NCBI RefSeq assembly: GCF_900096585.1
Contig: NZ_FMYH01000007.1
Span: forward strand, 124,001-188,000
Length of the DNA stretch: 64,000 bases
Direction: 5' to 3'
DNA from: Sanguibacter gelidistatuariae
Lineage (GTDB): Bacteria; Actinomycetota; Actinomycetes; Actinomycetales; Cellulomonadaceae
How positions within the stretch are numbered: the stretch's first letter is position 1; the number at the start of each line of letters is the position of its first letter. Shown piece by piece: positions 15,055 to 63,091 of the stretch. The position numbers and the translations under genes were made by a program. The notes under the pieces are model-generated. The model searched no databases. It saw nothing but the letters and a program-made list of their open reading frames with translations, and was not told where the DNA came from.

Positions 15055-15124
15055 TACGGGGCGTGCTCTTGACTACAGGGCGTGCCATCAAACGCACGTT
15101 TCGTCGTCAAGAGCACGCCCCGTA
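15055..15124. repeat. 70-bp palindromic element, copy A
   Basis: The terminal inverted repeats are 15055-15073 (TACGGGGCGTGCTCTTGAC) and 15106-15124. Between them an inner hairpin pairs CGTGC (15081-15085) with GCACG (15094-15098). Copies B and C have the same length and the same 19-bp arms. This copy lies between the convergent 3' ends of the GNAT and azlD genes, where it could also end transcription in both directions. Confidence 0.9.
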
Positions 15125-15212
15125 CGGTGTCGAGTGGGCGCCCGTTGGGCCGGGCGGCCGTTGGGTCGGGTCGTCGCTGGAGGGCTGGGGAGCTGGGCGG
15201 GTGGGCTTCGGG

Positions 15213-15551
15213 TTACAGCGAGGTCGTCAGGAGGGTGTTGACCAGGACGACGTAGGTCCCGGTCCCCGCGACGATGCTCAGCAGGGCGTTGCGCCGCCAG
15301 AGGTGGACGCCGACGGTCACGGCGAGGGCCAACGCCTCGGGCAACCCGTGCCAGCCCGAGCCGAGCGGCACGGTGCGCAGGGTGTAGACGACGAGGATGA
15401 GCATGATCCCGACCGGCATGTACCGGCCGAGGAATGCGATGTACGGCGACGCGCGGAGAGGCTCGAGGGCCGCGAACGGCAGCGCCCGCAGGGCGAAGGT
15501 GATGACGAGGATTGTCGTGAGCGACGCGAGGATGTAGCCGGCGCTAGGCAT
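15213..15551 (-). CDS. azlD: AzlD-family branched-chain amino acid exporter subunit
   Basis: A 112-residue, very hydrophobic protein with about four membrane helices, matching the small AzlD partner (about 105-110 residues). With AzlC it forms an exporter for branched-chain amino acids. Typical features are the opening GYILASLTTILVITFALRAL and PVGIMLILVVYTL in the middle. The gene overlaps the azlC 3' end by 8 bp, so translation is coupled. The 160 bp beyond its stop hold copy A of the 70-bp repeat and a G-rich stretch. Confidence 0.85.
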   Translation of the reverse strand: MPSAGYILASLTTILVITFALRALPFAALEPLRASPYIAFLGRYMPVGIMLILVVYTLRTVPLGSGWHGLPEALALAVTVGVHLWRRNALLSIVAGTGTYVVLVNTLLTTSL

Positions 15552-16401
15552 GGGACGGACCTACCTCATCGTCGGGTGCCGGGGGTGCCGGGGGTGCCGG
15601 GGAAACTGCGGGTGCGTCGCGGGAGCCCGGTGCGTCGCGGGAGCCCGGTGCGTCGAGGGCATCGCCGGGCGCGGTGCCCTCCCGGAGTGGTCGGCCTCCG
15701 TGCTGGTCGGTTCCGGGACCATAGACGTGGCGCCGGTCGAGCAGGAACCGCACCGTGAGCGCCGCGACGAAGAGGGCCATGGCGACGATGAGCATCTGGT
15801 CGGGGGCGACGACGAGCGCGACCAGCGCCGACAGCAGGGCCAGGATCGGGGACGGCACGTCTCGGGTGACCCGGAACGCATCGATCGTGAGCACGGTGAA
15901 CAGTGCCGTCAGAGCGAAGTCCATGCCACGCGGGATCGACGGCAGCACCGTGCCCAGGAGTGCGCCGAGCACCCCGCCGACCACCCAGTACCCCTGGCAC
16001 AGCACCTGCATCCACAGAATCCGGGCCGTTGTGCGCTCGGCAGCGGGGACGTGGTGGGCGAGGGCGTAGGCCTCGTCGGTCAGTGCGTACATGCTGTATG
16101 TCTTCGCCCACCGGCCGCGGACGGCGTGGAGCGGGAAGGACAGCGCGTAGAAGACGTGCCGGAAGTTGACCAGCACGGTCGCCAGCGCGATCTGGGCGAG
16201 CGGGGTCATCGCGACGATCAGGCCGATCGCGAGGAACTCGAGCGATCCGGCGTAGATGAACACCGAGAACAGCGGCGCCCACCACCAGGCGAGCCCGGCC
16301 TGGACGACGAGCAGCCCGAACGCGATCCCGAGCGGCACGAGGGCGATCCCGACCCCGGCGGTGTCCCTCAGGGCGTGAAGGAACGGTCGAGACGTAGGCA
16401 T
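15544..16401 (-). CDS. azlC: AzlC-family branched-chain amino acid exporter
   Basis: A 285-residue membrane protein with the AzlC pattern: GVGIALVPLGIAFGLLVVQAGL in the first helix, SGSLEFLAIGL-like YAGSLEFLAIGLIVAM in the second, and NFRHVFYALSFPL, the family hallmark. I use the ATG at 16401; a GTG three codons earlier is also possible. The last 45 residues are not membrane-spanning. They are Pro/Ala/Asp-rich and encoded by short tandem DNA repeats (15577-15660), giving two DAPGSR units and three PAP units. This tail looks species-specific. Confidence 0.85.
   Translation of the reverse strand: MPTSRPFLHALRDTAGVGIALVPLGIAFGLLVVQAGLAWWWAPLFSVFIYAGSLEFLAIGLIVAMTPLAQIALATVLVNFRHVFYALSFPLHAVRGRWAKTYSMYALTDEAYALAHHVPAAERTTARILWMQVLCQGYWVVGGVLGALLGTVLPSIPRGMDFALTALFTVLTIDAFRVTRDVPSPILALLSALVALVVAPDQMLIVAMALFVAALTVRFLLDRRHVYGPGTDQHGGRPLREGTAPGDALDAPGSRDAPGSRDAPAVSPAPPAPPAPDDEVGPSHA
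15577..15660. repeat. short tandem repeats inside the azlC 3' end
   Basis: Three near-exact 9-bp units (GTGCCGGGG) lie at about 15577-15602. Two exact 18-bp units, GCGTCGCGGGAGCCCGGT, plus a partial third lie at about 15611-15657. Both unit lengths are multiples of three, so copy-number change keeps the azlC frame and only lengthens or shortens its disordered tail. Confidence 0.75.
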
Positions 16402-16475
16402 GCCAACCACGCTACCTGCGCCGGCCCCTGCTCCCTACCGATCCGACCCACAGCCCGAGACCGCTAGTCCATACG

Positions 16476-16545
16476 TACGGGGCGTGCTCTTGACGACGGG
16501 GCGTGCCGTCAAACGCACGTTTCGTAGTCAAGAGCACGCCCCGTA
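16476..16545. repeat. 70-bp palindromic element, copy B
   Basis: The arms are 16476-16494 and 16527-16545, identical to those of copies A and C. The central 32 bp differ from copy A at only a few positions. This copy stands upstream of azlC and downstream of rnj (both minus strand), so it is not merely a terminator between convergent genes. Confidence 0.9.
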
Positions 16546-16698
16546 TGGACGGGAGTTGTGCCAATAGCTGGGGGGCAGGGGCCGGGCGGCACATAGGTGC
16601 GGGGTGGTGCTCGGGTGGCGGGTGGTGCGGAGGTGGGGCGGGTACCTGGGGAGGGCGGGGCGGCGTCGGGCAGCGACGCGGAAAGACGCGGGACACGA

Positions 16699-16735
16699 GA
16701 GGCGCTGGGGGACCGGATGGTCCGCCCAGCGCCTC
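16699..16735 (-). terminator. hairpin downstream of rnj
   Basis: An 11-bp stem (16699-16709 with 16725-16735) encloses a second 5-bp stem with the loop GGAT. It lies about 50 bp beyond the rnj stop. No T-run follows on the minus strand, so termination strength is uncertain. Confidence 0.55.
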
Positions 16736-16783
16736 GGGTGCTCAGCGCGAGCTCTTCAGCGCGCGCTGATCAGGAGATGCAGG

Positions 16784-18472
16784 TCAGGCGTCGACGACGA
16801 TCGCGTTGACCAACGGCTCGCGGCGGTACTTGCGCTGCAGCCACCGGGAGACGGCACGGGCGATCGTGGCCTCGAGGCGGTCGATGTCCCCGACGTCCTT
16901 CTTCGGGATCTGCGCGAGCGCCTTCTCGATCTCGACGACGGCGTCGTCGAAGGTGTGCCCGTCGTGGACGAACCCGCGGGTGATGAACTCCGGGGTCTCG
17001 GCGAGGACGCCGAGGTCGAGGTCCACGAGCGCGAGGACGGTGACGATTCCCTTGGAACCGAGTGCGAGGCGCTCGGCGAGGGTGTCCTCGGTCGCGGCGC
17101 CCACGGTCTGGCCGTCGACGTAGACGTAGCCGGCCGGGACCTTGCCGACGATGGAGACCTTGCCCTTGAACAGGTCGACGACCGTGCCGTCCTGAGCGAT
17201 GACGACGTTGTTCGCGGGCACGCCGGTCTTGACCGCGAGCTCGCCGTTGGCACGCAGGTGACGGGCCTCGCCGTGGATCGGCATGACGTTCTTCGGCTTG
17301 ACGATGTTGTAGCAGTACACGAGCTCGCCGGCGCTGGCGTGGCCGGAGACGTGCACCTTGGCGTTGCCCTTGTGGACGATGTTCGCGCCCAGATCGGTCA
17401 GGGAGTTGATGACGCGGTAGATCGCGTTCTCGTTACCCGGGATGAGCGAGCTGGCGAGCAGCACGGTGTCACCCTCGTCGACCTTGATGACGTGGTCGCC
17501 CTTGGCCATGCGGGACAGTGCGGCCATCGGCTCGCCCTGGGATCCGGTGCACACCAGGCAGATCTTGTTCGGCGGCATCGACTCGAGCTTCTTGAGGTCG
17601 ACGACGAGCCCCTGCGGGATCTTGAGGTAGCCGAGCTCCTCGGCGATCCCCATGTTGCGGACCATCGAGCGACCGACGAAGGCGACCTTGCGGCCGGACT
17701 CGTGGGCGGTGTCGAGGATCTGCTGGATGCGGTGCACGTGGCTGGCGAAGCTCGAGACGATCACGCGGCGCGGGGCCGTGCGGAACACCTGGTCGATCGC
17801 CGGGATGAGGTCCCGCTCGGACATCGTGAAGCCGGGGACCTCGGCGTTGGTCGAGTCCGTCATGAACAGGTCGACACCCTCTTCAGCCAGCTTGGCGAAG
17901 TGGTTGAGGTCCGTGATGCGCGAGTCCAGCGGGAACTGGTCCATCTTGAAGTCGCCGGTGTTGAGCACGAGGCCCGCACGGGTGCGGATCGCGACGGCCA
18001 GCGCGTCAGGGATGGAGTGGTTGACCGCGACGAACTCGAGGTCGAAGGGACCCTGCTTGGAGTGCCCGCCGGCCGCGACCTCGATCGTGCGAGGACGGAT
18101 GCGGTGCTCCTTGAGCTTGGCGGAGATGAACGCCAGCGTGAGCTTGGAGCCGATGATGGGGATGTCGGCGCGCTCCTTGAGCAGGTACGGGACACCTCCG
18201 ATGTGGTCTTCGTGACCGTGCGTGAGCACGATCGCGACGACGTCCTTGAGACGGTCCCGGATCCAGGTGAAGTCGGGGAGGATGACGTCGATCCCGGGCT
18301 GGTGCTCTTCGGGGAAGAGGACTCCGCAGTCGACGACGAGGAGCTTGCCCTCGAACTCGAACACAGTCATGTTGCGCCCGACCTCGCCGAGGCCGCCGAG
18401 GGCGACGATGCGCAGGGCACCACGGGGCAGAGCGGGCGGGGCATTGAGGTTCATCTTCATTGAGCTGAGCAA
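16784..18472 (-). CDS. rnj: ribonuclease J
   Basis: A 562-residue metallo-beta-lactamase/beta-CASP ribonuclease with endo- and 5'-3' exonuclease activity in RNA maturation and decay. The zinc motif HGHEDH lies at residues 85-90, and NTGDFKMD, TDSTNAEVPGFTMSE, SSFASHVHRIQQ and the C-terminal VHVSGHASAGEL are all present. TTG at 18472 has GAAGGT at good spacing; ATG at 18460 is the alternative. Length matches actinobacterial RNase J. It lies 81 bp downstream of prfC on the same strand, and a hairpin follows its stop. Confidence 0.93.
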   Translation of the reverse strand: MLSSMKMNLNAPPALPRGALRIVALGGLGEVGRNMTVFEFEGKLLVVDCGVLFPEEHQPGIDVILPDFTWIRDRLKDVVAIVLTHGHEDHIGGVPYLLKERADIPIIGSKLTLAFISAKLKEHRIRPRTIEVAAGGHSKQGPFDLEFVAVNHSIPDALAVAIRTRAGLVLNTGDFKMDQFPLDSRITDLNHFAKLAEEGVDLFMTDSTNAEVPGFTMSERDLIPAIDQVFRTAPRRVIVSSFASHVHRIQQILDTAHESGRKVAFVGRSMVRNMGIAEELGYLKIPQGLVVDLKKLESMPPNKICLVCTGSQGEPMAALSRMAKGDHVIKVDEGDTVLLASSLIPGNENAIYRVINSLTDLGANIVHKGNAKVHVSGHASAGELVYCYNIVKPKNVMPIHGEARHLRANGELAVKTGVPANNVVIAQDGTVVDLFKGKVSIVGKVPAGYVYVDGQTVGAATEDTLAERLALGSKGIVTVLALVDLDLGVLAETPEFITRGFVHDGHTFDDAVVEIEKALAQIPKKDVGDIDRLEATIARAVSRWLQRKYRREPLVNAIVVDA

Positions 18473-18553
18473 GTTGTTACCTTCAAACTACTGATGGCCC
18501 GGAAGGGCCGGTCGGTCAAAACAGAGGTCTTTGGGGGCCAGTCGGCTGCCCGG

Positions 18554-20185
18554 TCAGGTGGCTACGAGGGGTTCGAGCACGGCGTCGGGCAGGCGGTTGC
18601 GCACGGAGGTGACGCGCCACCGGTCGGGGAAGAGCGCGAGGTATTCGCCGTCCTCGCGCTGCAGGACCTCGACGCCGAGCTGGGCGTTGAGGTCGGCGAC
18701 CCACTCCGCGGTCGTGCGCAGCGCGATCTGGTACTGCAGGCGGTCGAGGGAGACCGGGGAGTTGAACTCGGTCCCCATCCGGTGCTCGGCGACCTCGAAC
18801 TGCATGGGCCCGACGGCGGCCAGCACGGGCGCCTGGTCCCCGCGCAGGTCGGAGCGCAGCACCTGGACGACGCCTTCGGCGCCGAGCTGCATGACCCCGC
18901 GCTGGAACTGCTTGTACTTCGACACGTCCTTTGCGCGCATGACGGCGAAGTGCTCGGGCGCGAAGGTCGGCAGCGGGGGGAACTCGACACGCTTGTCGAG
19001 GTAGAGGGTGTCGCCCACGCGCAGGTTGGCGGCGTTGACGAGGCCGATGACGTCGCCGGGGTAGGCGACGTCGACGATCGAGCGCTCGCGGCCGAAGACC
19101 TGCTGGGCGTACTTGGTCGCGAAGGGGCGGCCGGTGCGCGCGGAGGTGACGACCATGCCGCGCTCGAAGACGCCCGAGCAGATCCGGGCGAAGGCCAGGC
19201 GGTCACGGTGCGCGGTGTCCATGCCGGCCTGCATCTTGAAGACGAAGGCGCTGAACGGGGCCTCGACCGGCCGGGGCTCGCCCGTGATGGTCACCCGCGG
19301 GGTGGGCGACGGCGCGACGTCGACCAGCACGTCGAGGAGCGCGTGCACGCCGAAGTTCTGCACGGCCGAGCCGAAGAGCACCGGCGTGGTCAGGCCGGAG
19401 CGGAAGGTCTCGTCGTCGTGGTCGGCGCCCGAGGCCTCGAGCAGCTCGGACTCCTCGACGGCCGTCGTCCAAGCGTCGCCCTCCCGGGCGAGCGCGGCAT
19501 CCGGGCCCATGTGCTCCTCGGGGGCGATCGTGGTGCCACCGGCTGTGCGGGTGAAGCGGGTGTACTCCCCGGTGCGGCGGTCGAGCACGCCGCGGAAGTC
19601 GCCGCCGATGCCCACCGGCCAGGTGAGCGGGGTGGGGATGAGCCCGGTGCGCTCCTGGATCTCATCCATGAGCTCGAGCGCGTCCTTGCCCGGGCGGTCC
19701 CACTTGTTGATGACCGTGATGAGCGGGATGCCGCGGTGCTTGCAGACGGCGAACAGCTTCATCGTCTGGACCTCAAGGCCCTTGGCGGCGTCGACGAGCA
19801 TGACGGCGGCGTCGACCGCGGAGAGCACCCGGTAGGTGTCCTCGGAGAAGTCGGCGTGGCCGGGGGTGTCGACGAGGTTGATGACGGCGTCGCGGTAGGT
19901 GAACTCGAGGGCCGCGGAGGTGATCGAGATCCCTCGGGCCTGCTCCATGTCCATCCAGTCGGAGACGGTGCGCTTGCCAGCCTTGCCGTCGGCCCGGCCT
20001 GCTTCGCGGATCGCCTTGGCGTGCAGCGCGAGGGCCTCGGTGAGCGTGGACTTCCCGGCATCAGGGTGGCTGATCACCGCGAAGGAGCGTCGCCGGGCGG
20101 CTTCTGCGAGGACGACGACGCCGTCCCTGCTGGTGGAGGGCTCCGTGGCGGGGACTGCGGTGCTTTCGTGGGTGGCCTGAGGCAC
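18554..20185 (-). CDS. prfC: peptide chain release factor 3
   Basis: A 543-residue translational GTPase that recycles RF1/RF2 from the ribosome. The P-loop SHPDAGKST is at residues 39-47, the switch region contains RGISITSAALEF, DTPGHADFSEDTYR is G3, and NKWDRPGKD is G4 (Trp where Met or Leu is usual). GTG at 20185 is chosen for the AGGAAG five bases upstream; the frame runs back to 21244 but overlaps other genes. The protein ends with the RF3-specific C-terminal domain. It is probably co-transcribed with rnj. Confidence 0.93.
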   Translation of the reverse strand: MPQATHESTAVPATEPSTSRDGVVVLAEAARRRSFAVISHPDAGKSTLTEALALHAKAIREAGRADGKAGKRTVSDWMDMEQARGISITSAALEFTYRDAVINLVDTPGHADFSEDTYRVLSAVDAAVMLVDAAKGLEVQTMKLFAVCKHRGIPLITVINKWDRPGKDALELMDEIQERTGLIPTPLTWPVGIGGDFRGVLDRRTGEYTRFTRTAGGTTIAPEEHMGPDAALAREGDAWTTAVEESELLEASGADHDDETFRSGLTTPVLFGSAVQNFGVHALLDVLVDVAPSPTPRVTITGEPRPVEAPFSAFVFKMQAGMDTAHRDRLAFARICSGVFERGMVVTSARTGRPFATKYAQQVFGRERSIVDVAYPGDVIGLVNAANLRVGDTLYLDKRVEFPPLPTFAPEHFAVMRAKDVSKYKQFQRGVMQLGAEGVVQVLRSDLRGDQAPVLAAVGPMQFEVAEHRMGTEFNSPVSLDRLQYQIALRTTAEWVADLNAQLGVEVLQREDGEYLALFPDRWRVTSVRNRLPDAVLEPLVAT

Positions 20186-20389
20186 TGAACTTCCTGCGCT
20201 AGTTCGACAAGTGTGGGGGTGAGGGCATGCCCCCAGCGGTCCATTGTCCCGCGAAATGTGGGTGCTGGGCGACACGAACGATGTGGCGGGGTTTCTTAGG
20301 TCGGCGCGGGTGGCGCCCCGGACGGGCCGGTGCGGTGTGTCGCGGGGGTTGGGAGGGGACCTACGTCCCGTGGAATCGGTGGCCCGTGT

Positions 20390-20418
20390 TGAGACGATGA
20401 CTATGTTGAAACGATTCA
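20390..20418 (+). promoter_or_regulatory. LacI-type operator pair before the class II aldolase gene
   Basis: TGAAACGATTCA at 20407-20418 is identical to the rhaI operator. A weaker copy, TGAGACGATGAC, lies at 20390-20401, 17 bp upstream on the same helix side give or take. This links the gene at 20456 to the rhamnose LacI regulator about 12 kb away. The rest of the 270-bp gap to prfC shows nothing else. Confidence 0.68.
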
Positions 20419-20455
20419 CTCGCTTCGAGAGTGGCCGATACGATGAGGTGGGAAA

Positions 20456-21121
20456 ATGCACACGACCGCGAGCCGCGCGACCCGTCAGACGCGGGACGAG
20501 ATCCTCTACTACTGCCTCGAATCGGTGCGTACGGGACTCAACTTCAACACCCAGGGCAACATCAGCGTCCGTCTCCCGGATGCCCACGACGGGGCCGACG
20601 CGATCGTCATCACCCCGTCCGACGTGCGCTACGACGCGATGCGTCCCGAGGACATGGTCGTCGTCGGGTTGGACGGGACCGTGCTCGAGGGGACCTTGTG
20701 CCCCTCGACCGAGCTGCCGGTGCACCTGGCCCACTACCGCCGGCGTCCGGACGTGCAGGCGATCGTCCACACCGAGTCGACCTTCGTCAACGTGCTCGGC
20801 GCGCTCGGGCGGCGCATCGACCCGGTGCTGCTCAACATGGTGCTCTACGCCAAGGGGCCCGTCGAGATCATGCCTTTCGAGTTCTCCACGAACGCCGACT
20901 TCGGCCGGCGCAGCGCCGAGCTCATGGGCGACGACGTCAACGCCGTTGTCTGGGGCAACCACGGTCTGCTCGCGGTCGGGGTCTCGCTCAAGCTCGCCTT
21001 CAAGGTGGCCGTCGCGGTCGAGGAGAACGCCGAGGTGCTGCACCGGGCGAGCGGGGCCGGGGTGCCCAACGTGCTCGTCTACGGCGAGATCGACATCCCG
21101 GTCGGGGCGCGGCTGCCGTAG
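20456..21121 (+). CDS. class II aldolase/adducin-family protein with altered metal site
   Basis: A 221-residue class II aldolase of fuculose-phosphate-aldolase size. GNISVRL, ITPSDVRYD, catalytic Glu86 (PSTELPVH), His105 and His169 (GNHGLLAVG) are present. The second His of the usual H-x-H zinc motif is replaced by Glu107 (VHTEST). Spacing from Glu86 to His105 equals that in E. coli FucA (19). Its upstream operator matches the one before rhaI, so it probably belongs to the rhamnose regulon, perhaps handling a related sugar phosphate or acting as an epimerase. Exact substrate unknown. GAGGTGGG precedes the ATG. Confidence 0.8.
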   Translation: MHTTASRATRQTRDEILYYCLESVRTGLNFNTQGNISVRLPDAHDGADAIVITPSDVRYDAMRPEDMVVVGLDGTVLEGTLCPSTELPVHLAHYRRRPDVQAIVHTESTFVNVLGALGRRIDPVLLNMVLYAKGPVEIMPFEFSTNADFGRRSAELMGDDVNAVVWGNHGLLAVGVSLKLAFKVAVAVEENAEVLHRASGAGVPNVLVYGEIDIPVGARLP

Positions 21122-21293
21122 CGGAGTGGGCGGATCCGCCAGTCGGATGGGTGGTCCACCTCCGGCTACCTCCGCCGGTGCCGCAGTACGGGGCAGGGCC
21201 GGGCGGCTGAGCTGGTGCTGTTCCGTTGGCCCGTCGTGAAGCAAGCGGAGGTAGTCGCTTCCCTGCCAGAGGGTCGTCTGGGATGATCAACGG

Positions 21294-22346: not shown

Positions 22347-23049
22347 CGCTGTGACCTTGCCCGACGTGAAGCGGGTCCTCGTGCTGTCCGGCCGCGGCCG
22401 GTACGAGGACCCGTGGCACGACATGGCGGCGACCTCGCACCGGGTCGCGACCGTGCTCACCGAGGCCGGCTACGACGTCGTCGTGCGCGGGTCCTTCCCG
22501 AACGCGCTCGACGACGTGGCGGATGTCGACCTGCTCGTGGTCAACACCGGCTCGGGGCGCCCCGACGCCGCCCACGACGGCGACGACGCGCGGTGGGCGC
22601 CGTTCCACGAGGCCGTGCGGGCGTGGGCCGACGCCGGGCGACCGGTCCTGGCCCTGCACCAGGGAGCCAACACCTTCGGCGACAGCCCGCACTGGGAGCG
22701 GATCCTCGGCGGACGGTGGGTGGACGGGGAGTCGATGCACCCACCGATCGGCCCGGCGACGTTCGTTGTCGCCGACCCCGACCACCCGATCGGCGCGCCA
22801 CTCGTCTCGCGGCTGACCGGCGCGGTGACCGCTTTCGACGAACGGTACAGCTACCTGCGGGTGGCCCCCGGCATCGACGTGGTCCTCACCCAGGTGCACG
22901 ACGACGTGGCGCACCCGGTCGTGTGGGCGCACCAGGTCGGGGGAGTGCGCGTCGCCTACGACGGGCTCGGCCACGACGTGCGGTCCTACGACTCGGCCTC
23001 CCGCCGCGCGCTGCTGCGCAGCGAGGTGACCTGGCTGCTCGCGCCATAG
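22330..23049 (+). CDS. ThuA-like domain protein
   Basis: A 239-residue protein with the class I glutamine amidotransferase-like ThuA fold: KRVLVLSGRGRYEDPWHDM at the N-terminus, VDLLVVNTGSGRPD, the central LALHQGANTFGDS where ThuA proteins have a conserved His-Gly pattern, and FDERYSYLRV. ThuA proteins occur in trehalose and other sugar catabolic operons; their reaction is poorly known. The ATG at 22330 overlaps the end of the aldo/keto reductase gene, so the two are coupled. Its 3' end faces DUF2207 across a palindrome-rich 171-bp gap. Confidence 0.75.
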   Translation: MAPTADAVTLPDVKRVLVLSGRGRYEDPWHDMAATSHRVATVLTEAGYDVVVRGSFPNALDDVADVDLLVVNTGSGRPDAAHDGDDARWAPFHEAVRAWADAGRPVLALHQGANTFGDSPHWERILGGRWVDGESMHPPIGPATFVVADPDHPIGAPLVSRLTGAVTAFDERYSYLRVAPGIDVVLTQVHDDVAHPVVWAHQVGGVRVAYDGLGHDVRSYDSASRRALLRSEVTWLLAP

Positions 23050-23074
23050 CGCTGCGAGCGAGCGTCGCGGTGTG

Positions 23075-23176
23075 CCGACCTCGTGAACGGTTCGTCGAAC
23101 TCGTGAACCACGCCCGTTTCTCGCGTGAAACGGCCGGTAGCTCACGAGTTCGGCGGCCCGCTCACGAGTTCGGTCG
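23075..23176. repeat. nested palindrome between convergent genes
   Basis: Outer arms begin CCGACCTCGTGA (23075-23086) and end TCACGAGTTCGGTCGG (about 23162-23177). Inner arms are CGAACTCGTGA (23096-23106) and TCACGAGTTCG (23142-23152). A core hairpin pairs CCGTTTC (23114-23120) with GAAACGG (23127-23133). It lies between the 3' ends of the ThuA-like and DUF2207 genes and may be a bidirectional terminator or a repeat element. Confidence 0.75.
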
Positions 23177-23220
23177 GGGGACCGGGACCGGGACGGGTAC
23201 CGGGAGAGGAAAAGGCGCGG

Positions 23221-30226: not shown

Positions 30227-30246
30227 CAATTAAGTTGTGCACAACT
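30227..30246 (-). promoter_or_regulatory. OhrR-type operator upstream of ohrR
   Basis: Two overlapping inverted repeats lie 18-37 bp before the ohrR start: CAATTAAGTTG (30227-30237, imperfect) and AGTTGTGCACAACT (30233-30246, perfect 14 bp). AT-rich palindromes of this type are known OhrR-binding sites. This is probably an autoregulatory operator. Confidence 0.65.
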
Positions 30247-30366: not shown

Positions 30367-30430
30367 CGCTGAGTGCGGTCAAACGGTTGCCGGATATCCG
30401 TTTTGGGCAACCGTTTGACCGCACTCAGCG
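30367..30430. repeat. perfect 24-bp inverted repeat
   Basis: The arms are 30367-30390 and 30407-30430, all 24 positions complementary, with one more pair inside. The 16-nt loop contains CGGATATCCG, itself a palindrome. No T-run follows. It lies in the gap between divergent ohrR and the SGNH hydrolase gene, about 50 bp before the latter, so it is not a simple 3' terminator. Confidence 0.88.
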
Positions 30431-55939: not shown

Positions 55940-55986
55940 GCAGTGCGTCCGACAGACAACCAGAACTCATCCACGAAAGGCATGGA

Positions 55987-57507
55987 ATGTCACTCCACAT
56001 CGACCCCACCGCGACGATCGGTCGCGTCAATCCTGCCCTCCACGGGCAGTTCATCGAGTTCCTCGGCTCGTGCATCGACGACGGGATCTGGGTGGGTACC
56101 GACTCCACGGTCCCTCACACGGGAGGTGTGCGCCAGGGAGTCCTGGACGCGCTCGTCGAGCTCCAGCCACCCGTGCTGCGCTGGCCCGGCGGCTGCTACG
56201 CGGACACGTATCGCTGGCGGGACGGGATCGGTGACCCGGCCCAGCGGCCGACGACGTACAACGAGACGTTCGGGACGAGCGAGCTCGACGATCACGCGTT
56301 CGGCACCGACGAGTACCTGCGACTGTGCGAGACGATCGGCGCCGAGCCGTGGATCAACGTCAACATGATGAGCGGCAGCGTCGCCGAGATGCGCGACTGG
56401 ATGGAGTACTGCAACCGCGACTCCGGGACAGACCTCTCGACGCTCCGCGCCCAGAACGGGCACGCGGACCCCTATGGCGTGCGCCTGTGGGGCATCGGCA
56501 ACGAGGCCTGGGCCGGCGGCGGCATGATGACCCCGACGAGCTATCTCGACGAGTACCGGCGCTACGCCGCTGCGCTCCCGCGCTTCACCGCGAGCGTGCT
56601 CGATGCCCCGGCGGCGTACCCCATCGCCAGCGGACCGGACGGCAACAAGCCGCTCGAGCGGGTTGCGTGGACACGTGACTTCTTCCGGGCTCTCGCGTCC
56701 TTCCGTCAGCCGCCGATCTCCGGGTACGACCTGCACTTCTACAACTGGAACATCGACCACGAGAACGACTCCCCGACCCGCTTCGACGAGGAAGGCTGGG
56801 ACCGTGTCATCCAGTCGAGCCTCGAGCTCGAGAAGGTCATCCACGAACAGTGGCAGCTCATGCAGGAGGGGCTCGCGCTCGTTCCTGAGCCAGAGTCCAG
56901 CCTCGACACGAAGCTGGCCCACGTCGACCTCATCGTCGGGGAGTGGGGCAACTGGCACCGTGACGCGTTCTATGCCCGCCCAGCGCTCTACCAGCAGGTG
57001 ACCATGCGTGATGCGATCACGACCGCGCTCACCCTCGACATCCTCCAGCGCAACTGCGACAAGGTGTCGATGGCGTGCAACGCCCAGACGGTCAACGTGC
57101 TCAACTCGCTCATCCTCACGGAGGGGGAGTCGACGATCCTCACCCCCAACTTCGACGTGTTCATGATGTACAAGGCACACCGAGGCGCCATGGCGCTCAC
57201 CGTCGACCCCGTCGATGCGGTGAGCGGTGCGCACGCCTTCGCCTCGGTGACGCAGGACGGCATCCTCGTCAACCTCACGAACGTCCACATGACTGACGAC
57301 GTCGAGGTCGAGCTGACCTTCCCGTCACCCGTACGCCTCGAGTCCATCGAGACCCTCCGGTCCGACGAGCCGACACGGTTCAACTCGGTCGAGCATCCCG
57401 ACGCGGTCCGCCGGTCGACGACACGTCTGCAGACCGGCGACACGCTCTCCCACGTCGTGCGCCTGCCGGCTGGGTCCGTGAACGTCGTGCAGGTCCGGAC
57501 TGCGTGA
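55987..57507 (+). CDS. GH51 family alpha-L-arabinofuranosidase
   Basis: A 506-residue family 51 enzyme of usual length. PVLRWPGGCYADTYRWRDGIG lies near residue 58, acid/base Glu173 in GIGNEAWAGGG and nucleophile Glu319 in LIVGEWGNWH, and a C-terminal beta-sandwich closes the protein. It removes alpha-L-arabinofuranosyl groups from oligosaccharides of arabinoxylan, arabinan or arabinogalactan. There is no signal peptide. GAAAGG lies 7 bp before the ATG at 55987. It is the last gene of module 2 and directs interest to arabinose-decorated substrates. Confidence 0.92.
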   Translation: MSLHIDPTATIGRVNPALHGQFIEFLGSCIDDGIWVGTDSTVPHTGGVRQGVLDALVELQPPVLRWPGGCYADTYRWRDGIGDPAQRPTTYNETFGTSELDDHAFGTDEYLRLCETIGAEPWINVNMMSGSVAEMRDWMEYCNRDSGTDLSTLRAQNGHADPYGVRLWGIGNEAWAGGGMMTPTSYLDEYRRYAAALPRFTASVLDAPAAYPIASGPDGNKPLERVAWTRDFFRALASFRQPPISGYDLHFYNWNIDHENDSPTRFDEEGWDRVIQSSLELEKVIHEQWQLMQEGLALVPEPESSLDTKLAHVDLIVGEWGNWHRDAFYARPALYQQVTMRDAITTALTLDILQRNCDKVSMACNAQTVNVLNSLILTEGESTILTPNFDVFMMYKAHRGAMALTVDPVDAVSGAHAFASVTQDGILVNLTNVHMTDDVEVELTFPSPVRLESIETLRSDEPTRFNSVEHPDAVRRSTTRLQTGDTLSHVVRLPAGSVNVVQVRTA

Positions 57508-57592
57508 CTTCCCGGCATCTGCGGGGCACCGCTTCCGGGGTGGGCGAGAATGGGTCGTCAGATGATGGCTGGAGAAGCGGGAAGGGTCACTG

Positions 57593-58711
57593 ATGTCTCA
57601 ACGACGACCGGGACAACCGGGACCTCGTCGCACCGATCGTTTCCACCGACAGGTCCCTGCGGAGCAGCCGCCCCACGTCGTCGAGACACCGCACCTGACC
57701 CGGTATGTCACCGACGGGCGTCCCGCGCGCGAGCCGGAGGGGACGTCGGTGGCCGAGGCGCTGCGCTTTTGCCAGGGCGACGCGAACCGGATGGCCATGT
57801 TCTTCTACCCGGCGCCCACACGCTCGGGAATCGCGGAGCTCGCCGATGCCTGGGATCTGCACCCTCTTCTTCTCGAAGACCTGCTGAATGCCGGTCAGCG
57901 TCCCAAGCTCGAGCGCTACGGAGACGTCCTTTTCCTGGTAGCGCGCTCGGCGCGATACATCGACGAGGCGGAGGAGGTCGAGTTCGCAGAGTTCCATGTC
58001 CTCGTCCGCCCGGGCGCCGTGGCTGTCCTGTGCCAGGACAAGCGGTGGATCGACGGAACCGACGGGAGCGACTTCGACGATGAACAGAAGGCTTCGGTCG
58101 ATCGACGAGAACGCACGTTGCTCGCGGACGAGAGCCTCTTGAAGCTCGGGCCGGAGGCGGTGGTCTACCGGCTCCTCGACGCGATCGTCGACGGTTATGG
58201 TCCGGTCCTGCAGGGGCTGGCTATCGACAAGGAACAGATCGAGAGGCAGGTCTTCAGCGGAGACGCGGCTGCTGCGGAGCGGATCTACCGACTCAGCCAG
58301 GAAGTCATCGATATGCAGCATGCTGTCTCGTCGTTGACCGACGTCCTCGACGCGCTGCGGGCGGGATTCGACAAGTACGAGATTCCAGGCGAGCTCCGGA
58401 CGTACCTGGACGACGTCTCCGACCATCTCACCCGAGCCGCTTCTCGGACGTCCGAGCTCCGCGACGCGCTCTCCCAGATATTGAACGTGAACTCCACGTT
58501 GGTGGCTCAGCGCCAGAACGAAGACATGAAGAAGATCTCCGGGTGGGCAGCGATCCTCTTCGCCCCTACGCTGATAGCCGCCATCTACGGGATGAACTTC
58601 GACGTGATGCCCGAGCTGCACTGGGCGTTCGGCTATCCGATGGCGATCGCCCTGATGGTCGCTTTCGCCGCACTGCTCTACGTGATCTTCAAACGGAGCC
58701 GGTGGATGTAG
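57593..58711 (+). CDS. corA: CorA-family magnesium/cobalt transporter
   Basis: A 372-residue divalent-cation channel. A large cytoplasmic N-terminal domain with long helices is followed by two C-terminal membrane helices. The signature GMN is at residues 333-335 (YGMNFDVMPEL), after helix ISGWAAILFAPTLIAAIYGM, and the protein ends in the basic FKRSRWM. The ATG at 57593 follows GAAGGG. It is an independent gene, convergent with the isomerase gene 35 bp away, and has no evident tie to the sugar modules. Confidence 0.92.
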   Translation: MSQRRPGQPGPRRTDRFHRQVPAEQPPHVVETPHLTRYVTDGRPAREPEGTSVAEALRFCQGDANRMAMFFYPAPTRSGIAELADAWDLHPLLLEDLLNAGQRPKLERYGDVLFLVARSARYIDEAEEVEFAEFHVLVRPGAVAVLCQDKRWIDGTDGSDFDDEQKASVDRRERTLLADESLLKLGPEAVVYRLLDAIVDGYGPVLQGLAIDKEQIERQVFSGDAAAAERIYRLSQEVIDMQHAVSSLTDVLDALRAGFDKYEIPGELRTYLDDVSDHLTRAASRTSELRDALSQILNVNSTLVAQRQNEDMKKISGWAAILFAPTLIAAIYGMNFDVMPELHWAFGYPMAIALMVAFAALLYVIFKRSRWM

Positions 58712-58746
58712 GAACGGCACCTCCGCGCCTCGACCACGGTGGCTTC

Positions 58747-59658
58747 CTACAGGTGTGGCAGGACCAGGGCGGTATAGCGCTCGGCGACCGTCCGGATGAC
58801 CGTGTCCCCTGCGGTGTCCCAGATCTGCTGGTTGAAGATCTCCACCTCGATGTCGCCGGTGTACCCGGCGGTGGTGACCCAGCGTGTGATGGTCGGGAAG
58901 TCGATGTAGCCGTCGCCCATGTACCCGCGGGAGAGCAACGGGTCCGCGGCGAGCGGCAGGATCCAGTCGCACACCTGGTAGGACGCCAGGCGTCCCTCCG
59001 CTCCAGCCCGCTTGATGAGCGACTCCAGAGCGGGGTCCCACCACACGTGATACGTGTCCACCACGACGCCGACGACGTCCCCCGGGTGCGGGGCTGCCAG
59101 GTCGAGGGCTTGTCCGAGCGTGGAGATCACGGCGCGGTCTGCGGCGAAGATCGGGTGCAGCGCCTCAAGAACGATGCGTACGCCGTGCTCGGCGGCGAAC
59201 GGGACGAGGTCGGCGATGCGGTCGGCGACCCGCGCGCGGGTGGCCACCAGGTCCTTGGCCGCGTCACGCTCGGCGGTCGCGTCGGCCGAGTACCTGCGGG
59301 CCGGCAGCCCCGGCCCCGGGTTCGCGTCCAGCCCCCCGACGACAAACACCAGCTCGGAAGTCCCCACGGTCGCGGCCTCGACGATCGCGGCCTTGTTGTC
59401 GGCCAAGGCCGAGGCGATCCCGGCCGGGTCGGAGGCGGTGAGGAATCCGCCGCGGCACAGCGAGGAGACGCGCAGCCCGGCGTCGGCCACGATCTTGGCC
59501 GCCTTGTCCGCACCGACCTCCTGGACCCGGTCGCGCCACAGCCCGACGGCACCGTACCCGGCGCGGGCCGCGCCGTCGACGGCCTCGGCGAGGGTGAGGA
59601 GCTTGGTCGTCGCGGTGTTCAGGGACAGGCGGGACAGGTCGGGTGCGCCGGAGGTCAT
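58747..59658 (-). CDS. sugar phosphate isomerase/epimerase family TIM-barrel protein
   Basis: A 303-residue AP endonuclease-2/xylose-isomerase-like TIM barrel. Metal-ligand segments are visible: VLEALHPIF, VVDTYHVWWDP and DIEVEIFNQQIW. The ATG at 59658 is preferred; the frame continues to 59709. It is divergent from an SDR and FAD oxidoreductase pair, and two LacI-type operators lie between, so the three probably serve one pathway. Such proteins isomerise sugars or inositols, and some cleave 3-keto-glycosides. The substrate is unknown. Confidence 0.8.
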   Translation of the reverse strand: MTSGAPDLSRLSLNTATTKLLTLAEAVDGAARAGYGAVGLWRDRVQEVGADKAAKIVADAGLRVSSLCRGGFLTASDPAGIASALADNKAAIVEAATVGTSELVFVVGGLDANPGPGLPARRYSADATAERDAAKDLVATRARVADRIADLVPFAAEHGVRIVLEALHPIFAADRAVISTLGQALDLAAPHPGDVVGVVVDTYHVWWDPALESLIKRAGAEGRLASYQVCDWILPLAADPLLSRGYMGDGYIDFPTITRWVTTAGYTGDIEVEIFNQQIWDTAGDTVIRTVAERYTALVLPHL

Positions 59659-59744
59659 CGTCGAGTCCGTTCGGTGGTCGGGGTCCTGGCGTCTCGCCAG
59701 GGGCGGCACCGCCGCGAGGGCCGACGACGCACATCAGCGCCCGA

Positions 59745-59758
59745 GGAAGGCGCTTTCC
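59745..59758. promoter_or_regulatory. LacI-type operator 1 in the isomerase/SDR divergent region
   Basis: GGAAGGCGCTTTCC is a 14-bp palindrome with one mismatched pair and the central GCGC of many LacI-family operators. It lies 87 bp before the isomerase start. No LacI gene is adjacent, so the regulator is encoded elsewhere. Confidence 0.65.
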
Positions 59759-59820
59759 GTTGAGCATAGGACCGCCGTGACGGGCACGTCAACAAGTTGC
59801 GACCCGTTCGCTCCTCGGGA

Positions 59821-59836
59821 GGGAAAGCGCTTGCCC
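59821..59836. promoter_or_regulatory. LacI-type operator 2 in the isomerase/SDR divergent region
   Basis: GGGAAAGCGCTTGCCC is a 16-bp palindrome with one mismatched pair, with the same core as operator 1, 76 bp away from it. The pair could bind one tetrameric repressor that loops the DNA and controls both directions. Confidence 0.68.
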
Positions 59837-59933
59837 AACGCTTCGGATTCTGGGACGATGGCGGGCAGCACACGGCGCGCTCGCGCCGTCGGACAGGCCC
59901 GCATCGCCGGGCGCACCCAGAAGGATGGCAACG

Positions 59934-60731
59934 ATGCCCAAGGTCGCACTCGTCACCGGTGGAAACCGCGGAATCGGGCTGGGTATCACGCGCCGGCTGC
60001 TCGCCGACGGCTACGCTGTCGCGATCCTGGCCACCCGCCCCGAGCCCACGGAGCTCCTCGACGAGCTCCGCGCAGGCGGGCCGGACGGCGGCCCGGCCGA
60101 GGTCCTCTACGTCCAGGGCTCGGTCGCCGAGCTGGCCGACCACGACCGCTTCGTCGCCGCAGCCCTGGAGGCCTGGGGGCGCATCGACCTGCTCGTCAAC
60201 AACGCCGGCGTCGCGCCGTCGGTCCGCGCGGACCTCCTCGAGGCCGGCGCAGAGAGCTTCGACCGCGTCCTGGGCATCAACCTGCGCGGCCCGTACTTCC
60301 TCACCCAACGCGTCGCCAACGCGATGATCGATCTGCGCGGGGAGCGCAGCGACGCGACCGGCGACGAGAGCCCCGTCGGCACCATCATCAACGTCTCCTC
60401 GATCTCGGCGACGGCCGTCTCGACCAACCGCGGCGAGTACTGCGTGTCCAAGGCCGGGGTGTCCATGGGTACCCAGCTCTTCGCCGTGCGCCTGGCCCCC
60501 GAGGGGATCGTCGTCTACGAGGTGCGCCCCGGCGTCATCGCGACCGACATGACCGCCGCCGTCACCGAGAAGTACGACACGATGTTCGCCGACGGGCTCG
60601 CCCCCAACCCCCGCTGGGGCCGCCCCTCCGACGTCGCCGGCGCCGTCGCGATCCTCGCCTCGGGGCAGACGCCGTACTCGACCGGCGAGGTCTTCCACGT
60701 CGACGGCGGCATGCACATCCCGCGCCTGTAG
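59934..60731 (+). CDS. short-chain dehydrogenase/reductase
   Basis: A 265-residue classical SDR. The cofactor motif VALVTGGNRGIGLGITRRLL starts at residue 4, NNAGVAPS lies near 88, the catalytic Ser is in NVSSISATA, and the Tyr/Lys pair is in EYCVSKAGVSM. It ends with GEVFHVDGGMHIPRL. It is often labelled 3-ketoacyl-ACP reductase, but the gene context favours a sugar or polyol substrate. The ATG at 59934 has AAGG upstream; another at 59925 is possible. The FAD oxidoreductase gene follows after 44 bp. Confidence 0.85.
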   Translation: MPKVALVTGGNRGIGLGITRRLLADGYAVAILATRPEPTELLDELRAGGPDGGPAEVLYVQGSVAELADHDRFVAAALEAWGRIDLLVNNAGVAPSVRADLLEAGAESFDRVLGINLRGPYFLTQRVANAMIDLRGERSDATGDESPVGTIINVSSISATAVSTNRGEYCVSKAGVSMGTQLFAVRLAPEGIVVYEVRPGVIATDMTAAVTEKYDTMFADGLAPNPRWGRPSDVAGAVAILASGQTPYSTGEVFHVDGGMHIPRL

Positions 60732-60775
60732 CCCAGCGCACTCGTCCCACCACCCTCGCCTCAGGAGAACCTCCC

Positions 60776-62995
60776 ATGTCCGACCAGACCCACTCGCCCC
60801 AGCCCGCGGGAGACCACTCGGTCAACGCGAGCTACGACCTTGAGACTGTGCGGATCGCCGGCTTCGACGTGCCCGTGGTGTCGGCGAACACGGTCATCGT
60901 GGGGACCGGCTCGGCCGGCTTCTGCGCCGCGGACCGGCTGTGGGAGTTCGGCCAGGAGGACATCGTCATGGTGGCCGACAAGGTCAACGCGGGGTCCTCG
61001 CGCAATGCTGGCTCGGACAAGCAGACGTACTACAAGATGACGCTGTCAGGCGGGGACGGTGACTCCGTCCGGGAGATGGCCCAGACCCTCTTCTCCGGCG
61101 GGGCGATGGACGGCGACAACGCGCTGTGCGAGGCGGCGCTGTCCGCCCGGGGCTTCCTGCGCCTGTGCGAGCTCGGCGTGCCCTTCCCGCAGAACCGCTT
61201 CGGGGAGTTCGTCGGCTACAAGACCGACCACGACCCGCGCCGCCGGGCGACCTCGGTGGGGCCGTACACCTCGCGCTCGATGGTCGAGCAGCTCGAGAAG
61301 AAGGTGCACCGCAACGGCACCCGGATCTATGACCGGTGCCGCGTCGTCGACGTCCTCACCCGCGACATCCCGGCCGGCGCCGGCCGGACCGCCGCCGACC
61401 TCGCCGACCTCGCCGGCGCCGCTGCGCCCGCCGAACCCCAGCGCGAGGTGGTGGGGCTGCTCTGCCTGCGCACCGACGTCGTGCACGACGGCGCGCAGAG
61501 CCCCTACGTGCTCTTCCGCGCGACCAACCTCGTCTACGCGACCGGCGGACCGGCCGGGATGTACGCGACGTCGGTGTTCCCCAACGGGCAGTGGGGCGCC
61601 TCGGGGGCCGCCTACCGCGCCGGGGTGCACGGCAAGAACCTCACCGAGTGGCAGTTCGGGCTCGCCTCGACCAAACCGCGGTGGAACGTGTCGGGCACGT
61701 ACATGCAGGTCATGCCGCGTTTCGTGTCGACCGACGCCGATGGCGGTGATGAGCGGGAGTTCCTTACCGAGACGATCCCCGACTATGGCCGCCAGCTGTC
61801 GATGGTCTTCCTCAAGGGCTATCAGTGGCCCTTCGACATCCGCAAGGCCCTCGACGGCTCCTCGCTCATCGACCTGCTCGTCTACCAGGAGACGGTGCTG
61901 CGCGGGCGCAAGGTCTACCTCGACTTCACCCGCAACCCGATGCAGCACAAGCTCGATCCGACGAAGATCTCGCCCGAGGCGCGCGCGTACCTGGCCAAGG
62001 GTGGCGCGCTCTTCGGCACGCCCATCGAGCGGCTCAAGCACATGAATCTGCCCTCCTACGAGCTCTATCTCGGCAAGAATCCCTACGTCGACCTCGCCAC
62101 GGACTGGCTCGAGGTGGACGTGTGCGCCCAGCACAACAACGGCGGGCTCGTCGTGGATGCCTGGTGGGAGTCCAACCTCGCCGGTTTCTTCCCGGTGGGC
62201 GAGGCCGGCGGCGCGCACGGCATCTACCGCCCCGGCGGCGCGGCGCTCAACTCTGGGCAGGTCGGGGCGACCCGCGCCGCCCAGCTCATCGCGGCGCGGC
62301 GCACCCGGGCGCCGCTCGACCTGGCGCCCTTCGCCGAGATCGCCGGGCCGCTCGTGGAGTCCGCCGTCGCCCTCGTCGCCGGCGCCGCCGCACGGGTGGT
62401 CGCCGGTGCGCCCGACAACACCGGGGACCTGCTGCGCGCAGCCAGCTCGCTCATGAGCGAGAAGGCCGGCCCGGTGCGCTCGGCCGAGTCGATCACGCAG
62501 GCGCTCGCCCAGGTCACGCGGTGGCTGGCGACGTACGACTCGCTCGTGGCCGCCGATCCCACGAGCCGCCGCTCGGTCGATCGGACCTTCCTCGTCCGCG
62601 ACATCATGACCACGCAGTACGTGTACCTCTCCGCGATGGCCGACTACGTCGCGCACGGGGGCCGCAGTCGGGGGTCCGTGCTGTACACCGATGCCGCGGG
62701 GAGCCTGCCGCAGGTGGGCTTCGGTGACGCGCCGGCGGCCGAGCTCGACCTGCCGGAGATCTTCCGTTTCGCCCTGGACAGCGGCGCGCTGGACGACGTC
62801 GTGCAGGAGGCCGCGTGGGCGGGTGGCGGCGAGGCGGTGCGCGGCGGGGAGGCGCGCGGCGGCGTCGGGCCCGGCGATGGCGACGCCGCAGGCGAGTGCA
62901 GCTTCACCTGGCGCCCGGTACGCCCGATCCCCGAAGACGACGACTTCTTCGAGAACGTCTGGCGCACCTACCGAGAGAACCAGAACATCTTCTGA
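60776..62995 (+). CDS. FAD-dependent oxidoreductase of the fumarate reductase/succinate dehydrogenase flavoprotein type
   Basis: A 739-residue flavoprotein. The dinucleotide motif VIVGTGSAGFCAADRL lies at about residue 40-55 and RNAGSDKQTYYK near 78. LVYATGGPAGMYATSV sits in the middle, and the C-terminal FAD contact FPVGEAGGAHGIYRPGGAAL near 465 resembles FrdA/SdhA-like proteins. It lacks a signal peptide. A Gly/Glu-rich insertion of about 25 residues precedes the last 40 residues. AGGAGA stands before the ATG at 60776; the very long upstream frame is a GC artefact. Coupled to the SDR; the substrate is unknown. Confidence 0.82.
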   Translation: MSDQTHSPQPAGDHSVNASYDLETVRIAGFDVPVVSANTVIVGTGSAGFCAADRLWEFGQEDIVMVADKVNAGSSRNAGSDKQTYYKMTLSGGDGDSVREMAQTLFSGGAMDGDNALCEAALSARGFLRLCELGVPFPQNRFGEFVGYKTDHDPRRRATSVGPYTSRSMVEQLEKKVHRNGTRIYDRCRVVDVLTRDIPAGAGRTAADLADLAGAAAPAEPQREVVGLLCLRTDVVHDGAQSPYVLFRATNLVYATGGPAGMYATSVFPNGQWGASGAAYRAGVHGKNLTEWQFGLASTKPRWNVSGTYMQVMPRFVSTDADGGDEREFLTETIPDYGRQLSMVFLKGYQWPFDIRKALDGSSLIDLLVYQETVLRGRKVYLDFTRNPMQHKLDPTKISPEARAYLAKGGALFGTPIERLKHMNLPSYELYLGKNPYVDLATDWLEVDVCAQHNNGGLVVDAWWESNLAGFFPVGEAGGAHGIYRPGGAALNSGQVGATRAAQLIAARRTRAPLDLAPFAEIAGPLVESAVALVAGAAARVVAGAPDNTGDLLRAASSLMSEKAGPVRSAESITQALAQVTRWLATYDSLVAADPTSRRSVDRTFLVRDIMTTQYVYLSAMADYVAHGGRSRGSVLYTDAAGSLPQVGFGDAPAAELDLPEIFRFALDSGALDDVVQEAAWAGGGEAVRGGEARGGVGPGDGDAAGECSFTWRPVRPIPEDDDFFENVWRTYRENQNIF

Positions 62996-63021
62996 CCCGC
63001 CTGGCAGGCTTGCCGGCAACA

Positions 63022-63091
63022 TACGGGGCGTGCTCTTGACTACGGAACGTGCTGTTGAACGCACGCCCCGTAGTCAAGAGCACGCCCCGTA
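63022..63091. repeat. 70-bp palindromic element, copy C
   Basis: The arms 63022-63040 and 63073-63091 are identical to those of copies A and B, and pairing extends three more bases inward to 22 bp. The centre is more diverged but keeps the CGTGC/GCACG inner hairpin (63048-63052 with 63061-63065). It begins 27 bp after the FAD oxidoreductase stop. Confidence 0.9.

Follow-up and report, generated by a model that had tools for sequence, protein, structure and literature searches.

Three 70-bp palindromes lie within a window of 64,000 nucleotides from the Sanguibacter gelidistatuariae genome (the whole stretch of DNA that was analysed), which raises the question of what kind of element they are and how such an element could be copied. 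The following features of the window bear on this question:

15055..15124, unstranded: A-family 70-bp palindrome, copy 1, between the convergent GNAT acetyltransferase and azlD genes
15055..15073, plus strand: 19-bp unit U (outer half-site and spacer) of copy 1, defined from the sequence and a 19-bp period scan
16476..16545, unstranded: A-family 70-bp palindrome, copy 2, flanked by the 5' end of azlC and the 3' end of RNase J
23075..23173, unstranded: F-family palindrome with four CGAACTCGTGA-like half-sites at a 20-bp period
30367..30430, unstranded: B-family palindrome of 64 bp with CGCTGAGTGCGG arms
63022..63091, unstranded: A-family 70-bp palindrome, copy 3, 26 bp past the stop codon of a FAD-binding protein gene

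The coordinates, lengths and all six identical 19-bp arms reported by the first-pass annotation were confirmed, as was the location of two copies on either side of azlCD (the GNAT–azlD gap for 15055, the gap from azlC to the RNase J 3' end for 16476). The gene identities beside these two copies were assigned with Pfam, and the gene limits come from a simple, non-standard codon-bias caller script. The arms are exact in 6/6 cases, while 0.03 arms (with up to three mismatches) are expected by chance. RNA folding of the six strands of the three window copies gave −49.7 to −65.7 kcal/mol (z −9.0 to −15.3), with base pairing extending to the last base. A search of the window against Rfam gave no match reaching the gathering score. 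The supposedly variable centre is constrained, since the inner arm is the outer half-site (TACGGGGCGTGC) again, 19 bp further in, so that each copy contains four half-sites. The A-family anatomy consists of half-sites of about 12 bp, two direct and two inverted, 19 bp apart and with a short loop between them. In copy 1, the half-site recurs inward from 15074, and the right side carries both in inverted form. As terminal inverted repeats, the window copies have outer arms that are exact over 19 bp; overall, the arms are imperfect and 31 bp long.

Searches of six Sanguibacter genomes at E up to 0.1 located A copies at 17 places in S. gelidistatuariae, 18 in a second genome (G004) and 15 in S. 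suarezii, and 15 of the 17 S. gelidistatuariae copies are exactly 70 bp long (one is 69 and one 71 bp). The family had been described as three copies, with the argument that only three copies genome-wide and identical placement in all relatives would speak against mobility; the count of 17 overturns the former and removes that objection. Related copies are thus present in two of the five other Sanguibacter genomes, and the remaining three gave weak matches alone (E 0.003–0.03). A sequence model of family A (R1) had no match at E 1e-5 among 296 further genomes from the order, in a search that used stricter filters, scored few candidates and also lacked the copy-bearing G004 and S. suarezii among its matches. 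A pattern scan for the A sequence over the genomes' contigs returned three S. suarezii stretches and nothing else. Since the exact A sequence was not found outside the genus, we traced the class through its architecture and its partner gene.

All 17 S. gelidistatuariae copies are located on contigs C13 and C17 (1.30 of 4.04 Mb), with dnaA at C17:437133, and the probability of this clustering, with neighbouring copies merged into 15 groups, is 4e-8. The sister families described below have no such bias, with 17/48 and 12/28 of their copies on these contigs. Both observations are in line with a role of the A palindromes as sites of an origin-domain protein that organises the chromosome. We consider this highly unlikely, as the positions of some A copies differ between species, three of the six Sanguibacter genomes contain only weak matches, and the association of the sister families with nuclease genes would be left unexplained.

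Analysis of the gene context covered 48 placed copies from the 50 places in the three genomes (C6:45666 and C10:53170 of S. suarezii were left out). None of the 48 is contained in a called gene; one of them shares 2 bases with the end of a gene. In co-directional gaps, the copy is closer to the upstream stop codon in 24 of 26 cases; convergent gaps hold 16/48 copies compared with 87/507 (copies treated as independent), and divergent gaps hold 6/48. The copies are thus extragenic and mostly behind genes. Transcription terminators or mRNA 3'-end stabilisers, kept by selection and formed into families via gene conversion, would account for this position behind stop codons, the excess in convergent gaps and the strength of the window-copy hairpins (−50 to −66 kcal/mol). 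However, a four-T run just outside either end was found in 0/48 copies, and a terminator does not need the 19-bp direct repeat. Two palindrome-free orthologous sites in S. suarezii and the matching pairs around nuclease genes, some of them upstream, also argue against this explanation, which we regard as improbable.

Comparison of the 17 S. gelidistatuariae copies with the S. suarezii stretches analysed placed 11 on both sides and one on one side, leaving 5 unplaced, and revealed both filled and empty orthologous sites. At the site of copy 1, the palindrome is absent from S. suarezii; the site of copy 2 contains a 70-bp palindrome of different sequence (A', C8:96816), and that of copy 3 contains an A-type copy (C8:155130). 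The gaps at the two palindrome-free sites are too diverged to fix junctions, and neither a target-site duplication nor an excised form was seen. Taken together, family A is supported as a dispersed, lineage-specific and extragenic REP/MITE-like element. The earlier suggestion of a REP/MITE-like element is supported by these properties (17 copies and two palindrome-free S. suarezii sites), whereas a MITE in the strict sense is unproven, with no target-site duplication identified. MITEs lack autonomy, are small and end in long inverted repeats, and family A resembles them in its small size and terminal inverted repeats; it differs in that no same-ended transposase was found and that the gene beside the sister families encodes a nuclease.

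Families of short extragenic palindromes that are dispersed in a lineage, with copies beside the enzyme gene, are described for REPIN/REP-RAYT (TnpA-REP) systems (PMC3116915, PMC3733652). Family A is similar in forming multi-copy extragenic palindromes (17 copies), and its sister families adjoin an enzyme gene. A classical REP/REPIN moved by a RAYT, a Y1 HUH transposase, would fit the extragenic, lineage-specific hairpin of about 70 bp. The Y1_Tnp model (PF01797), which was positive in 5 of 14 control genomes, had 0 matches at E 0.001 in the whole S. gelidistatuariae genome, so the idea of a RAYT-type partner raised by the first-pass annotation finds no support. Furthermore, no unpaired GTAG or CGTC tag was found in the window copies or in the examined flanks, and we give this origin hardly any weight. 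The class also differs from REPIN/RAYT in having an AbiEi-like and Vsr-like nuclease in place of the Y1 HUH transposase, no GTAG tag and four half-sites at a 19–20 bp period, and it was found here in Sanguibacter's order (Micrococcales under NCBI taxonomy). CGTC-tagged REPs form dispersed families apparently without a dedicated transposase (PMC3733652); they consist of 8–9 bp stems, the CGTC tag and a short tail, in contrast to the 31-bp imperfect arms of family A without an unpaired tag. Unlike them, the sister families of A have an associated nuclease gene.

The sister palindrome families flank genes whose products combine an AbiEi-like N-terminus with a Vsr-like (MTES_1575/DUF559) nuclease C-terminus. 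A DUF222/13E12 nuclease, the initial guess for the partner, was dropped because the palindrome-adjoining genes proved DUF559-like. In S. gelidistatuariae, palindromes of families D, E and F are located on both sides of nuclease genes and those of A' and B on one side, and in S. suarezii those of C, D, F and A' are on both sides. The two sister families of the window are among them: F-family copies flank nuclease genes at S. gelidistatuariae C12:110638 and S. suarezii C21:288557, and a B-family copy adjoins the gene at S. gelidistatuariae C11:284855. The S. gelidistatuariae nuclease gene at C10:192579 has no palindrome between genes. Among 15 Sanguibacter loci, at least one palindrome was found in 15 (14/15 is fairer, as that of L184 sits inside a called gene), with palindromes on both sides in 9 and a matching pair in 7. 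This set was drawn from 22 matches, excluding the duplicate L185, its fragment L193, and partial L178, L188, L190, L191 and L194.

The nuclease genes of other genera are likewise associated with palindromes. A palindrome lies within 700 bp of 19/26 nuclease genes and 70/468 control genes (Fisher, 3e-10), and a matching pair is present at 9/26 and 0/468, respectively (7e-13), the control genes all being from Sanguibacter contig C17 and none from the compared genera. The 26 loci are those of L195–L222 (28 loci) except L210 and L217, which were dropped as shorter. They contain 29 palindromes within 700 bp of the gene compared with one in the outer flanks, and 7 of the 26 genes have no nearby palindrome.

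Profile analysis revealed the identity of the protein, a stand-alone protein of about 300 aa. AbiEi models matched 6/6 members (best 5.5e-14), and this AbiEi-like N-terminal half is probably DNA-binding. The C-terminal half corresponds by profile to a Vsr-like PD-(D/E)XK nuclease, as 6/6 members match the MTES_1575 profile (E up to 0.5; best 4.2e-8), and residues E187, D218, E229 and D231 are kept in at least 34 of 37 proteins. Solved structures gave weak profile matches (best E 0.078). In single-protein Pfam searches, the D protein and an A' fragment had no match at E 0.001, two A' proteins had none at 0.01, and one A3 member scored below both curated cut-offs. PMC3710099 presents MTES_1575 as a domain with the Vsr fold within giant HEPN proteins, in contrast to the stand-alone protein beside palindromes found here, and the main text of that paper contains "palindrom" 0 times. 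In the nuclease tree, A' proteins group with A', D with D and F with F, while B, C and E form one group, and the nuclease clades agree with the palindrome families. The nuclease loci are often at the same place in two species, so the nuclease genes themselves look stable.

The AbiEi-like half would also suit palindromes that are binding sites of the nuclease, as an operator or for self-marking in defence, and that were spread by ordinary duplication. The four half-sites suggest a multimeric protein, and some nuclease genes have upstream copies. Nevertheless, the dispersed copies are mostly behind unrelated genes and not in promoters, many nuclease genes have copies on both sides, and near-identical copies are dispersed (five of family D in 70 kb). 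We therefore favour this possibility little.

The explanation that we prefer, with a probability of roughly 0.6, is that the three copies belong to a lineage-specific, miniature and non-autonomous palindromic family, A, of a class with cognate AbiEi-Vsr nuclease genes; many sister families have such a gene, with copies of their own family on one or both sides. The AbiEi-like half would bind the half-sites, and the nuclease may nick or cut the palindrome or its extruded hairpin. Repair or strand transfer could then copy the palindrome into new sites, and copies would be kept mostly behind genes, where insertion harms little. The system would parallel REPIN/RAYT but use an unrelated enzyme. Several findings speak against this explanation: the copies in divergent gaps, the nuclease genes with no palindrome nearby, the weak single-protein Pfam results, the failure to see a target-site duplication or excised form, and nuclease genes that look stable.

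For family A itself, the candidate enzyme is the A' nuclease encoded at C13:103851-104738, some 19 kb to the left of the window; alternatively, its enzyme has since been lost. An A' palindrome lies beside the nuclease gene in S. gelidistatuariae (C13:103392) and also in S. suarezii (C8), where the A' protein is encoded at C8:59228. No TACGG-type (A) ends were found on nuclease genes in the 21 inspected of the 22 Sanguibacter match loci, and G004 has 18 A-like copies, yet palindromes of a different family flank its single nuclease gene. Agreement of the A consensus is 41/70 positions with the A' element adjoining the candidate gene and 40/70 with a D element, which makes the pairing of A with a nuclease ambiguous; 2000 random palindromes reached at most 38/70. 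For the S. keddieii counterpart of the A' nuclease locus, an 18-kb stretch gave no match to that region, and hence no empty site is readable there.

Matches to the nuclease family (E up to 1e-20) are present in 234/297 genomes of the order. No relative was found in viral contigs, and nine plasmid records contain distant relatives (at most 35.1% identity); the few that are annotated are named hypothetical, DUF559 or AbiEi proteins. A literature search, with preprints and most subscription journals outside its scope, returned no account of palindromes tied to AbiEi-Vsr nucleases among the papers listed. The position of the sister families beside these nuclease genes, in this and related bacteria, points to a class of miniature mobile DNA that is little known. 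More broadly, we see about an even chance that stand-alone AbiEi-Vsr nucleases copy widespread mobile palindromes in the order, such that a REPIN-like life style was invented a second time with a PD-(D/E)XK enzyme, enzyme and half-site co-diverge at a fixed locus under an unchanging 70-bp/19-bp-period geometry, and older families give way to newer ones at shared sites behind genes. If true, this would provide a role for the protein family, explain many repeated intergenic palindromes of these bacteria, offer a second, independent case of how tiny palindromes spread and stay tame, and make the DNA target of many such nucleases predictable from sequence alone.

The class occurs in many genera of the order, and its commonest plan is a half-site of about 12 bp in two direct and two inverted copies at a 19–20 bp period around a short loop, with a length of about 66–79 bp, or 98–112 bp in some members. 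Family A, at about 70 bp and with each arm carrying a 19-bp direct repeat, belongs to it. Gene-flanking palindromes at 14 loci of the genus and 28 of the order, 54 in total, include 38 with a 19- or 20-bp direct repeat despite differing half-site sequences; 39 passed a rough shuffle test, and one period-16 row with an arm too short for the shuffle was dropped. When contig C17 was scanned for the 70-bp plan without regard to sequence, 20 places emerged at the 19-bp period, 0 in one shuffle, and 0–4 at each of the eight remaining periods in the range 15–23. Among the 20 places, at least 609418 looks like chance. In a genome of another genus (G032), the 21 arm matches of one family form 9 pairs with a single spacing, and two of these pairs flank the nuclease gene of that family.

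The three palindromes recorded by the first-pass annotation were confirmed in the sequence, each 70 bp long with exact 19-bp arms:

15055-15124, A-family palindrome
16476-16545, A-family palindrome
63022-63091, A-family palindrome

An A copy consists of TACGGGGCGTGC-TCTTGAC, another TACGGGGCGTGC-like half-site displaced 19 bp toward the center, a central 8-nt loop (TTCAAA-like in many copies), and inverted versions of both half-sites. In the alignment of 16 copies selected by arm similarity (13 from the source genome, G000, and 3 from S. suarezii), standard pairs occupy 93.3% of the pair cells. Both-sided changes occur at 7 of 31 pairs in this alignment, and they carry little weight as evidence, because 17 of 500 shuffles attain as many and the copies were picked for arm similarity. 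In several inner stems, C-to-T (or G-to-A) runs lie beside the loop-proximal GCACG (CCCC, TCCC, TTCC, TTTC), forming G.T pairs on one strand only.

The A palindromes are one member of a class of families, and a palindrome scan of contig C17 of G000 revealed the following others.

Sister families from the palindrome scan of C17
B and C: CGCTGAGTGC arms, about 64 bp
D: GGTCGTCTAT
E: CGATAGGTG
F: CGAACTCGTGA, about 103 bp

An arm search located B/C-like elements at 48 places in G000 and 17 in S. suarezii, and at none in the other four Sanguibacter genomes. The F pattern gave 38 matches in G000, which we count as 28 places since outer and inner arms can match separately. A intergrades with A', a related 70-bp palindrome of different sequence, as at C17:167599 and S. 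suarezii C8:150636. A sequence-blind scan of Sanguibacter stretches (70 bp, 19-bp repeat) recovered A, A', D, and relatives, one of them in G003. The 70-bp element of 19-bp period at C17:354520-354589, inside a 4.3-kb called gene, is the sole one of 20 C17 scan matches within a called gene. Five nearly identical D palindromes lie within 70 kb of C17 (89869, 91087, 97143, 153815, and 159580), two of which surround their nuclease gene, and this looks like a recent, local spread. A degenerate B-like palindrome (TGAGTGCGGGCGAATGGCTGG..., 86% complementary) lies at 14373-14430 of the window, and another dispersed family (CTCATGCCCGTGGCGCGCC) was observed in G003 (1730213, 3656178, and 3660870).

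DUF559 matches in S. suarezii sit between palindromes of the B/C-like and F-pattern sets, and one in G000 adjoins a B palindrome. A profile (A3) built from six palindrome-adjacent DUF559-type proteins gave 22 matches in six Sanguibacter genomes, with the flanks of 21 inspected.

Nuclease loci in G000 and S. suarezii and their flanking palindromes
G000 C17:90097, D on both sides
G000 C12:240876, E on both sides
G000 C12:110638, F on both sides
G000 C11:284855, B upstream
G000 C13:103851, A' upstream
G000 C10:192579, no palindrome between genes
S. suarezii C10:154224, C on both sides
S. suarezii C21:288557, F on both sides
S. suarezii C7:9109, D on both sides
S. suarezii C8:59228, A' on both sides

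The nuclease genes of G001, G003, and G004 are flanked by palindrome families of their own, and among the 21 inspected flanks no class palindromes were found at five partial matches or in G002. The G001 loci at 30232 and 3519473 (L181 and L185) share the same flanking palindromes near both ends of a single-contig genome, and may represent a duplication or overlapping contig ends. At G003 3301962 (L182), a palindrome related to the CTCATGCCCGTGGCGCGCC family adjoins a nuclease-like gene carrying a stop codon.

Outside the genus, 234 of 297 genomes contain A3 matches at 1e-20. Among 26 of these loci, taken as the top E-value match per genome with palindromes disregarded in the choice, a palindrome lies no more than 700 bp away at 19, versus at 70 of 468 control genes from C17, and a matching palindrome pair is present at 9, versus at none of the 468. 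A 19- or 20-bp repeat is present in 38 of 54 nuclease-flanking palindromes; the geometry persists despite sequence change. In G032, from another genus, one family yields 21 arm matches; nine pairs at one spacing account for 18 of these, two of the pairs flanking the nuclease gene at C7:89747 and the others lying elsewhere.

In the nuclease protein, PADLOC AbiEi models match the N-terminal half of all six members and both A' proteins, while the C-terminal half matches MTES_1575 (6/6, best 4.2e-8) and DUF559 (6/6, best 4.8e-4) with E-values allowed up to 0.5. Pfam searches of single proteins assigned no family to the D protein, an A' fragment, or two A' proteins. Four acidic residues, presumably the catalytic residues of the Vsr-like fold, are conserved in at least 34 of 37 relatives. 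In the nuclease tree, like groups with like for A' (support 1.00), D (0.97), and F (0.98). B, C, and E share a single clade (1.00), and the palindromes of this clade do not have the 19-bp repeat. One nuclease locus is common to G000 and S. suarezii (both sides) and G004 (one side), and its flanking palindromes have three diverged sequences: the enzyme seems to diverge in step with its site.

The gene-palindrome association, geometry, placement, and co-divergence are observed; in the mechanism inferred, the AbiEi-like half would bind the palindrome, the Vsr-like half would cleave, and repair or transfer would copy the element. Vsr-type enzymes act at T.G mismatches, and, speculatively, the inner-stem G.T pairs of A would suit such an enzyme. 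Against this mechanism, no nuclease gene of A's own was found among the inspected loci, and the assignment of A to a nuclease is ambiguous, its consensus agreeing with the A' element next to the candidate gene at 41 and with a D element at 40 of 70 positions. REPIN/RAYT systems work alike, but the present system differs from them in enzyme and tag. The RAYT-type partner raised in the first-pass annotation was not borne out, with no Y1_Tnp match in the genome. No published account of palindromes with these nucleases was found in literature excluding preprints and most subscription journals.

A covariance model, scoring 150 first-look candidates per genome, placed A at 17 sites in G000; G004 has 18 and S. 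suarezii 15. G001, G002, and G003 together yielded just five matches, all weak (E 0.003 to 0.03). At E 1e-5 with stricter filters, G000 was the sole scorer among 297 genomes of the order. All 17 places of G000 lie on contigs C13 and C17 (1.30 of 4.04 Mb; dnaA is on C17), a bias absent from B/C and F, which are evenly spread. None of 48 A copies lies within a called gene, with one overlapping a gene end by 2 bases. These copies occupy 16 convergent, 6 divergent, and 26 co-directional gaps, versus 87, 138, and 282 of the 507 gaps of C17 (convergent excess, binomial 0.005), and the upstream stop is the nearer gene end for 24 of the 26 co-directional copies. No copy checked has a T-run directly outside its ends. 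Judged by eye, and by Pfam for the six window neighbors, the neighbors in G000 look like ordinary genes without a common function.

Eleven A copies of G000 could be anchored on both sides in S. suarezii. Seven face an A or A' element, two share a region with three elements in G000 and one in S. suarezii, and two (139055 and 805061) face no element; conversely, S. suarezii C8:101507 has no counterpart at 21121-21293 of the window. Two of the seven (140476 and 932880) are A in G000 and A' in S. suarezii, and near the equivalent of 932880, where the preceding gene is presumably galactokinase, G003 carries yet another palindrome (109 bp, 3661519, placed by interpolation). Two D sites of G000 face F elements in S. 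suarezii by one-sided anchors. The comparison is suggestive of palindrome families being replaced at the same sites.
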